Below, piece after piece: positions 19,177-20,719 of a DNA stretch of 64,000 bases. The first letter of the stretch is position 1, and each line of letters starts with the position of its first letter. The notes under the pieces are model-generated. The model was not told the DNA's origin. It ran no database searches and was given only the letters and a program-made list of their open reading frames with translations. The DNA is from Acuticoccus yangtzensis (GTDB taxonomy: Bacteria > Pseudomonadota > Alphaproteobacteria > Rhizobiales > Amorphaceae). Made by a program: the position numbers and the translations under genes. The stretch spans positions 1-64,000 of the forward strand of contig NZ_MJUX01000012.1 in NCBI RefSeq assembly GCF_001927245.1. Direction: 5' to 3'.

Positions 19177-19575
19177 CGCGGCGCTTTCCAACGGGCAAGG
19201 GGTGCGGCCGGTCTCCTCGCGGCCGCGCCCCCGCCTTAGCACCGGCCCGGCGGACGGTGCGAGAGGCGGCGGCGGGGAGCCGATGCCCGGCGGCAACATG
19301 CGACGCGCCGGCCGCCGGGCGGCATTGCCGCGGCACAGCGGGGCGGCGAGGGGTCGAGGGCGACGCCGGCGCGACGGGTGGGCGCGCAGGCGGGCGTGGC
19401 GGAGGGCGAAGGCGCGACGGGTGGGCGCATCGGCCCCCGCACCGACGCGTTCTATATAGGAGCCTGACCGGCGCCGCTGCGGCAGGCCGGGCGGCACCTT
19501 TGCGTGTTACAACACCGCGGGTGCCGCACCCGGCCCGACCGCCGCACGGTGTCCGCCACACCAGAGGAGAGAGAC
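19177..19575. other. 399-bp divergent intergenic region with an 18-bp direct repeat
   Basis: No gene was recognised. GGCGCGACGGGTGGGCGC occurs at 19368-19385 and 19411-19428 (43-bp period), each preceded by a GAGGGCGA variant. TTCTATATAGG at 19450-19460 is the most AT-rich point and is a candidate -10 region for the dioxygenase-like gene at 19576. Confidence 0.5.
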
Positions 19576-20118
19576 ATGACGTCAGCCCCTCCGATCACCG
19601 CCACGTCCGCACTCCGCCTGCCGTCGCGCCGCGCGCTTTTGACCGGCGGGGCCGCCGCAGCGGCGGGCGCCGTCCTCGCCGGGGGGCCGTTCGGCGTCCT
19701 CCCCGCCCGCGCCGCCGGCCTCGCGCCGACACCCACCATGCGCGGCGGCGCCAACAACTACCGGCCCGGCGCGCCCATCGTCCCGCGCATCGGCGGCGGC
19801 GGGTTCGCGATGTCGGGCCGCGTGCGCCGCGCGGGTGACGGCGCCCCGCTGTCCGGCATCCGCATCCAGATCTGGGCCCACACCACCGAGGGCAACGAGC
19901 GCGACGCCCGAAGCCACGGCGCCACCCTCACCGACGCCGATGGGCGCTTCGTGATGGACATGCCGCAGATCGTCCCCGCCTTCGGCCAGGCTCACGCCCA
20001 CCTCGCCTACGACGCCGAGTTCGACGATCACGGCTTCCAGACCGTGTTCCTGCGCCCGCTCCTGCAAAGCCGCGGCGACACCAGCCTTTCGGCCGACTTC
20101 GTCCTCGTTTCGGCCTGA
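19576..20118 (+). CDS. Tat-exported intradiol-dioxygenase-like protein
   Basis: 180 residues. A twin-arginine signal (PSRRALLTGG, R18-R19) leads to a site near ARA. The mature part resembles the core of intradiol ring-cleavage dioxygenases: a beta-sandwich segment (SGVRR-type strand, IRIQIWAHT, TLTDADGRFVMDMP) and the histidine pair H140-A-H142 in FGQAHAHLAYD. In true intradiol enzymes two tyrosines and two histidines bind ferric iron. Here I find no tyrosine in the two usual places (VPAFGQ replaces the PxYPW segment), so standard catechol cleavage is doubtful. A good AGAGGAGAGA ribosome site precedes the ATG. The next gene starts 4 bp after this stop and encodes a di-haem membrane protein, suggesting a membrane-to-periplasm redox pair. 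Confidence 0.72.
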   Translation: MTSAPPITATSALRLPSRRALLTGGAAAAAGAVLAGGPFGVLPARAAGLAPTPTMRGGANNYRPGAPIVPRIGGGGFAMSGRVRRAGDGAPLSGIRIQIWAHTTEGNERDARSHGATLTDADGRFVMDMPQIVPAFGQAHAHLAYDAEFDDHGFQTVFLRPLLQSRGDTSLSADFVLVSA

Positions 20119-20122
20119 ACCT

Positions 20123-20719
20123 TTGCGGCGCATCCTCATCTGGGGCGGGCTGGGGCTCGCCCTTGCGCTGCCGCTCGCCGTGGCGGCGACGAGCCCGCTG
20201 CTCGCCTGGAGGGACGCGGTCTATATCACCGCGTGCTTTGCCGGCATCGTCGGCATGGAGGTGCTCCTTCTCCAGCCGCTGCTGGCGGGGCGGTCGCTGC
20301 CCGGCCTGTCGCCGCGCCTGTCGCGCCGGCTGCACGCGGCGGGGGGCGCGCTGCTGGTCGCGGCCGTGGCCGTCCACGTCGGCGGTCTCGCCGTGACAAG
20401 CCCGCCCGATGTCGTGGACGCTCTGCTTCTGCGCGCACCCACGGCCTTTTCGGTCTTCGGCGTGGTGGCGCTCTGGGGCGTGGTCGCCACCGCCGTCCTC
20501 GCGCTCGCCAGGCGGGGCCTGTCCGCCGCGGCCTGGCGCATCGCCCATCTGTCGCTGGCGGCCGTGATCGTCACCGGCAGCGCCATTCACGCGATTCTCA
20601 TCGACGGGACGATGGGCACCGTCACCAAGATCGCGCTGTGCGTTCTCGTCGCCGCTGCGACGATGCGGGTGACGGTGCGGTTCTGGCCCCGCCTCGGCCT
20701 GCGCCGCGTCCGGGCCTGA
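20123..20719 (+). CDS. Ferric-reductase-like transmembrane di-haem protein
   Basis: 198 residues with about six membrane helices and no FAD or NAD(P) domain. Four histidines are placed as two pairs with identical spacing: H71-x13-H85 and H142-x13-H156. This is the bis-haem ligand pattern of ferric reductase/NOX/MsrQ-type domains. The TTG start at 20123, 4 bp after the preceding stop, implies translational coupling. It probably carries electrons from the quinone pool across the membrane to the Tat-exported partner; that role is inferred by analogy with MsrQ and MsrP. Confidence 0.8.
   Translation: MRRILIWGGLGLALALPLAVAATSPLLAWRDAVYITACFAGIVGMEVLLLQPLLAGRSLPGLSPRLSRRLHAAGGALLVAAVAVHVGGLAVTSPPDVVDALLLRAPTAFSVFGVVALWGVVATAVLALARRGLSAAAWRIAHLSLAAVIVTGSAIHAILIDGTMGTVTKIALCVLVAAATMRVTVRFWPRLGLRRVRA

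Follow-up and report, generated by a model that had tools for sequence, protein, structure and literature searches.

Two adjacent genes, P1 and P2, lie on the forward strand of the window, that is, of the whole 64,000-nucleotide stretch of Acuticoccus yangtzensis DNA that was analysed. The P1 frame opens with an ATG at 19576 and ends with a TGA at 20116-20118; four bases separate this stop codon from the TTG at 20123 with which P2 starts on the same strand. The features assigned to both genes, with the evidence on which each assignment is based, are the following.

19576..20118, forward strand: P1, a Tat-exported minimal protein with a modelled intradiol-dioxygenase fold, 180 aa (ORF, AF2 model, fold match).
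19576..19713, forward strand: twin-arginine signal peptide of P1, with RR at residues 18-19 and an ARA motif ending at residue 46 (sequence).
19873..19899, forward strand: W100-x7-E108 of P1 (hhalign register, PDB mutant chains, E108 invariance).
19915..19917, forward strand: H114 of P1, candidate extra ligand or active-site residue (invariant in 118/118).
19993..20001, forward strand: H140-x-H142 of P1, predicted equivalent of the histidine pair that binds Fe in PCD (118/118; hhalign).
20123..20719, forward strand: P2, a predicted six-helix membrane protein of the FRD/NOX type, 198 aa, TTG start (ORF, AF2 model, SpNOX match).
20333..20377, forward strand: H71 and H85 of P2 (H-x13-H) in TM3, predicted b-haem ligands (117/117 rows).
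20393..20449, forward strand: P2 residues 91-109, predicted periplasmic loop and likely docking side for P1 (column entropy; positive-inside rule).
20546..20590, forward strand: H142 and H156 of P2 (H-x13-H) in TM5, predicted b-haem ligands (115/115 rows with a residue there).

No Pfam or NCBIfam family scored above its cut-off for P1 or P2 of the window, and PDB sequence searches with both proteins and their profiles retrieved no convincing relative; matches were obtained by fold comparison alone.

We examined how widely the two genes occur. Relatives of P1 (E<=1e-5) are present in 53 of 297 genomes of the host order (45 of 254 among the good genomes), with 47-76% identity when the window's own genome is set aside. 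A P2 profile (E<=1e-3) matches 56 of the same 297 genomes, which comprise all 53 P1 genomes and three others: G089, where the P2 gene touches a contig end on the side where P1 would sit; G026, a genome 67% complete with a partial match; and G129, where a weak, distant match lies within a 590-aa frame. In 36 of 37 loci from plasmids and genomes, the window's own included, P2 comes directly after P1 on the same strand; in the single exception (L030) P1 lies within about 55 bases of a contig end. It also adjoins P1 on the same strand in all of 80 loci, these being the highest-scoring of at least 553 confirmed P1 relatives in named genomes and not a random sample. When the earliest start is taken, the spacing between both genes there ranges from -11 to +54 bases and lies between -4 and +10 in 66 of the 80. 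Because P1 relatives are this widespread and P2 comes directly after P1 so regularly, a chance pair of open reading frames is ruled out. The survey of gene pairs proposed with the initial annotation hence found the pairing conserved in nearly every case (36/37 and 80/80 loci, 53/53 genomes): many Alphaproteobacteria have a tightly linked P1-P2 unit, and the pairing is nearly obligate. The pair is probably present in hundreds of species genomes, at least 553 stretches having been confirmed.

In a phylum sample, P1 matched 20 of 398 genomes, all of the same class and all with E<1e-64, in a scan that scored at most nine first-look candidates per genome and may therefore miss distant intermediates. 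P2 stood beside P1 in each of the 20 genomes, some of which also belong to the order sample. Two of these matches carried a '1 TGA' flag; recoding was rejected, TGA being the normal P1 stop codon. Four Granulosicoccus or Granulosicoccaceae MAGs (Gammaproteobacteria) are found among the best 80 of the at least 553 relatives. As P1 is present in two of eight genomes listed for the genus of the window and is carried on eight plasmid records, the pair probably moves between genomes. On one of these elements, the Pseudosulfitobacter plasmid pSMR1-3 (L009:6405-6983), the frame of P2 breaks off after 117 codons while the similarity runs on, and no gene is listed at that frame; P2 looks broken there, and P1 intact.

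The initial annotation had described P1 as a Tat-exported protein, and its N-terminus bears this out, with the two arginines at 18-19, a hydrophobic stretch and the ARA cleavage-like site, which leave a mature part of about 134 residues. Conservation was assessed on 118 aligned members (115 distinct). The pattern RRx[FLVI][LMVI] occurs within the first 70 residues in 111 of them, RR alone in six and neither in one; the TIGR01409 Tat model matched nine of 74 P1 members. An AF2 model of the mature part, built with 74 sequences (pLDDT 86.6, pTM 0.82), has 9yh9_A as its best Foldseek match (E 3.2e-7). VIA-align also places 9yh9_A first (Z 13.1, rmsd 2.7, 129/136 residues), and 4ilv reaches Z 12.4; dioxygenases fill the first 28 rows (Z 10.2-13.1), and the first non-dioxygenase follows at Z 9.1. 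Judged by this model, P1 has the intradiol-dioxygenase fold, which it shares over nearly its whole chain (Z 10-13), together with the HxH motif, with PCD, catechol 1,2-dioxygenase and the short dioxygenases SACTE_2871 and 9yh9, the latter from a phage. The unusual partner fold claimed for P1 was thereby recovered from the model. Compared with PCD, P1 is much shorter, is exported and is paired with a membrane protein. At the profile level, PF00775 matches 56 of 74 P1 members at E<=0.1 (best 1.7e-4), fewer than the transthyretin-like CarboxypepD_reg model, which matches 71 of 74 (best 2.1e-5). Profile-profile comparison by hhalign, in which the P1 alignment is shallow (Neff 1.7), gave E 3e-6 and a probability of 88% in a single comparison against 16 PcaH/PcaG-type rows (two of them identical), and E 7.6e-6 against nine catechol-type rows.

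These alignments were used to locate the residues that correspond to the iron ligands. The HAH of P1 (H140/H142) is paired by hhalign with the HIH of PcaH-type proteins, whose histidines we take to be His460 and His462 in PCD numbering. Against PcaH-type proteins there is no gap from W100 to E108, a segment in register with the W-x7-Y of the dioxygenases, which puts E108 at the Tyr408 position. Against the catechol-type rows, a gap falls between N107 and E108 and E108 is not paired with the tyrosine, the W-x7 spacing being equal by eye in most of those rows. Two PDB chains, 1yko (Y408H) and 1ykm (Y408E), have His and Glu respectively at W+8; of the PCD chains listed, the laboratory mutant 1ykm is the one with Glu in place of Tyr408, whereas in P1 this Glu is the native residue, in 118 of 118 members. 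The loop of the second tyrosine (Tyr447), whose PGPYP motif contains a His in the 3lkt/3pcd chain (3pcd being titled Y447H), is shortened in P1 and has no tyrosine; from the glycine before it to the first ligand histidine P1 is, by eye, eight residues shorter than PcaH-type proteins. F136, near the shortened loop, is kept in 116 of 118 members.

Neither tyrosine position of the dioxygenases is filled by a tyrosine in the window's P1, because Y62 and Y145 are its only tyrosines. Both lie outside the ligand regions and are well kept (Y62 in 116/118, with two Phe; Y145 in 117/118), and Y62 may reach the metal site. Between residues 63 and 144 there is no tyrosine in 102 of the 118 members, and the other 16 have one each, at column 107 (14 members), 63 (one) or 126 (one). 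The earlier claim that P1 lacks tyrosines at the iron-ligand positions was thus upheld by sequence and profile alignment at both sites, the first being occupied by the invariant E108. Besides E108, the residues H114, Q131, Q138, H140, H142 and R160 are invariant in 118/118, and H102 is found in 116; in the AF2 model, the strand that follows the E108 loop begins with H114. From this pattern, the site of P1 is most likely His2-Glu (H140, H142 and E108), with H114 as candidate third histidine, and E108 looks like a natural metal-ligand change in a textbook iron-enzyme fold. That P1 has a His/Glu metal site of some kind we hold to be probable.

The same fold and the HxH motif would also suit a P1 that works as a ring-cleaving dioxygenase with odd ligands, P2 only keeping the redox state of its iron right. 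With both tyrosine ligands absent and the Tyr447 loop shortened by about eight residues, and with PF00775 scores of 13.9 bits for the full-length protein and 14.8 bits for the mature part against a gathering score of 27.3, we regard such an activity as very improbable. A His2-Glu site would be devoid of tyrosinate ligands and is therefore not expected to perform Fe(III)-tyrosinate chemistry as true intradiol enzymes do.

P2 was modelled by AF2 with a pLDDT of 95.4 as six long helices which, with their loops, take up its 198 aa and leave no residues for a flavin or NAD domain. H71 and H85 are located in TM3 and H142 and H156 in TM5, each pair spaced as H-x13-H, and the initial description of a protein starting four bases after P1 with two such pairs and lacking a flavin domain is accurate. 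Two histidine pairs on TM3 and TM5 define the pattern of the FRD family; in the NOX/FRE pattern, which P2 matches, two helices bear two histidines each, 14 apart, unlike b561. By this ligand pattern, P2 would carry two b haems. The fold matches of the model are SpNOX 8qt6 (Z 17.0), cytochrome b561 (16.0), Dcytb (14.8), NOX5 (13.6) and STEAP4 (12.7), with the proviso that for helical bundles a Z under about 13 can reflect a common arrangement; Foldseek was weaker (best E 0.017). PF01794 matches 68 of 74 P2 members (E<=0.1, best 2e-12), the P2 of the window being unmatched. An assignment of P2 to cytochrome b561 was rejected despite the Z of 16.0: in b561 the haem ligands come one per helix over TM2-TM5, whereas P2 has two histidines on TM3 and two on TM5. 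P2 has the six-helix fold common to NOX/SpNOX and STEAP and, as NOX, two histidine pairs; NOX has an FAD/NADPH domain fused to its FRD, whereas P2 has no FNR, FAD or NADPH domain and has instead a dedicated periplasmic partner gene.

Conservation of P2 is unevenly distributed over both sides of the membrane. With segments drawn by hand and sidedness taken from the positive-inside rule (positively charged loops being cytosolic), mean column entropy is 0.98, 0.51 and 0.87 in the predicted periplasmic loops, 1.63 and 1.78 in the cytosolic ones and 2.82 in the C-terminus. Conserved periplasmic loops are expected from a dedicated periplasmic partner, and residues 91-109, the best-conserved stretch of P2 with its value of 0.51, are likely the side of P2 that docks P1. 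As the donor side is poorly conserved, the electron source of P2 is a guess. Divergence of P1 and of P2 is correlated over 113 pairs (Mantel r 0.52, the highest of 500 permutations being 0.21), a correlation that may come from shared descent alone, the permutation test ignoring kinship. Taken with the near-obligate linkage, we have little doubt that P1 and P2 work together. Both the pairing and the conserved periplasmic face of P2 would fit equally a P1 without catalytic activity that serves P2 in the periplasm as a subunit or maturation factor, with a structural or haem-insertion role. We consider that role improbable, the seven residues invariant in 118/118 members at or around the predicted metal site appearing to exceed what a scaffold needs.

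How electrons would run between the two proteins was considered next to these data. Di-haem b proteins are able to run toward the quinone pool, and nothing in the sequence fixes the direction; P1 might then oxidise a periplasmic substrate and P2 send the electrons to the quinone pool. This we find unlikely, the best fold match of P2 being the outward-transferring SpNOX and the FRD proteins described in passages of one paper moving electrons outward (PMC11031084). Electron flow from P2 to P1 is, in our judgement, the likely direction.

Upstream of the pair, an exact TCAC-N6-GTGA dyad precedes 32 of 118 pairs, which are related sequences and not 32 independent cases; the highest dyad count in one shuffle was seven. 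The extended pattern TCACG-N4-YGTGA-N4-GGTTTRYC (up to one mismatch) was found in 11 of 14 genomes, once in each and always upstream of the pair, these 14 genomes having been picked because most had it; it was found zero times in the reversed control. A wider regulon defined by this palindrome was rejected, all 11 strict-pattern matches in the 14 genomes lying directly upstream of the pair. Judged from sequence, the palindrome resembles an operator or activator site dedicated to the pair. In several loci (L043, L050, L056, L057, L065, L071 and others) it reads TCACG-N4-CGTGA followed by GGTTTATC, about 85-190 bases before the twin-arginine codons of P1. The window is not among the 32 pairs with the exact dyad; an inverted repeat, GTGTT-AC-AACAC, unlike the palindrome of other genera, lies at 19504-19515, upstream of P1.

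The genes surrounding the pair were compared in the 80 loci, with flanks of up to 10 kb (shorter at contig ends), by clustering ORFs of at least 90 aa into families present in at least 10 of the loci. Apart from P1 and P2, these families are three antisense shadows of the two genes and a loose group that turns up in 30 loci; the one member tested is an ABC-transporter ATPase (PF00005). This group is scattered from -9.1 to +8.5 kb on both strands, with 22 of 37 genes on the strand of the pair, and no third gene stands in a fixed place. Since no neighbour recurs in a fixed place, the context says little about the substrate. Of the eight plasmids with a match, four had their annotated neighbourhoods compared, and these contain no shared cargo; three further records have no annotation there. 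On the plasmid of Rhodovulum sp. P5 (L003:3082-6087), a cytochrome b/b6-domain gene and a c-type cytochrome gene flank the pair; neither family recurs in the 80 other loci.

These neighbourhoods bear on a possible role in metal assimilation, in which P1 would carry periplasmic Fe(III), Cu(II) or a metal-catecholate and P2 would reduce the metal for uptake. The fold that P1 shares with catechol-binding iron enzymes and the ABC-transporter ATPase genes, no more than 10 kb away at 30 of the 80 loci, would favour it. So would published views on FRD proteins: the general view, as stated in part of one paper, is that di-haem members reduce Fe(III) that is external or periplasmic (PMC9218516), and sections of another interpret MsrQ-like clusters that include a VIT1 transporter gene as iron reductases (PMC8238504). 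Nevertheless, the ATPase genes are scattered as for any abundant family and no other family reaches 10 of the 80 loci, and a preserved deep dioxygenase site combined with Tat export would suit an enzyme loaded with its cofactor more than a carrier at the surface. We therefore consider metal assimilation unlikely.

An MsrPQ-like relay, in which P2 passes electrons to the His/Glu metal site of P1 for reductive chemistry in the periplasm, has in our opinion somewhat better than even chances. MsrP is Tat-exported, and the MsrP/MsrQ system resembles P1-P2 in combining a periplasmic partner with a six-helix FRD protein that has no flavin domain; electrons would, by analogy, also move outward across the membrane. 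The partners themselves differ, MsrP being a molybdopterin enzyme and P1 having, in its model, a dioxygenase fold. Among the NCBIfam matches of 74 P2 members (E<=0.1) none is named MsrQ, the presence of an MsrQ model in the library being unconfirmed. The analogy with MsrPQ drawn in the initial annotation holds for the anatomy, that is, the Tat-exported partner, the FRD/NOX-type protein devoid of a flavin domain and the conservation of the periplasmic face; electron transfer, haem, metal and substrate are what we infer beyond it. In published accounts, as given in portions of two papers, electrons move outward through FRD proteins by way of two b haems, and the exposed distal haem of MsrQ hands them over to the docked periplasmic MsrP (PMC11031084, PMC5676040). 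Flavinylation-associated MsrQ-like systems, described in sections of PMC8238504, resemble the proposed role of P2 in that a PF01794-type membrane protein feeds an extracytosolic redox protein. Their clusters typically have apbE and an FMN-binding gene (same sections of PMC8238504), unlike the P1-P2 pair, which has no third gene in a fixed place in 80 loci.

The possibility that P1-P2 substitutes for MsrPQ was rejected, an MsrP-family model matching 264 of the 297 genomes of the order (198 over the cut-off), that of the window included. The MsrP-family gene of the window's genome is located at G000:C26:184059-185039 (L178), with no MsrQ beside it within 7 kb by eye. A PF01794 search of this genome gave no match; because it also misses P2, other FRD proteins may have been missed there. 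P2 may serve MsrP too.

Tat substrates cross the membrane folded, and the choice of metal can thus be fixed in the cytoplasm. In the relay that we favour, P1 and P2 would together make up a redox module with one component in the inner membrane and one in the periplasm. P1 would fold in the cytoplasm, probably loaded with its metal, before Tat export. P2 would hold two b-type haems between TM3 and TM5; the quinol pool or a soluble flavin reductase would supply its electrons, and P1 would accept them at the conserved face that P2 turns to the periplasm. In P1, the ferric His2Tyr2 site would have become His2-Glu (H140, H142, E108), probably with H114 in addition; it would bind Fe(II) or Mn(II), iron being the likeliest metal. 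The site would cycle between reduced and oxidised states and most likely act on O2, peroxide, another oxidant or an oxidised substrate. As to the specific reaction of P1, we consider every candidate doubtful at best.

In line with the initial annotation, which knew of no described system with it, no description of the P1-P2 pairing was found in the literature searched, that is, in those parts of the open PMC full text (preprints and supplements aside) that the searches returned, and P1-P2 appears to be a system, so far undescribed, for an electron-driven reaction on the outer side of the cell membrane. According to passages of a 2024 paper, no FRD-containing protein of prokaryotes other than MsrQ had to date a physiological function that was clearly identified (PMC11031084); P1-P2 adds an FRD protein whose periplasmic partner gene is fixed and nearly obligate. 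The predicted ligand change sits where the laboratory Tyr-to-Glu (1ykm) and Tyr-to-His (1yko) mutants have already been crystallised, and both proteins are small and directly testable. We tentatively suggest, at somewhat less than even odds, that P1 may represent a new class of non-haem metalloenzyme, with an intradiol fold bearing a His2-3/Glu site and driven by a dedicated transmembrane di-haem cytochrome b, and that the pair may be the second type of physiological prokaryotic FRD relay after MsrPQ.
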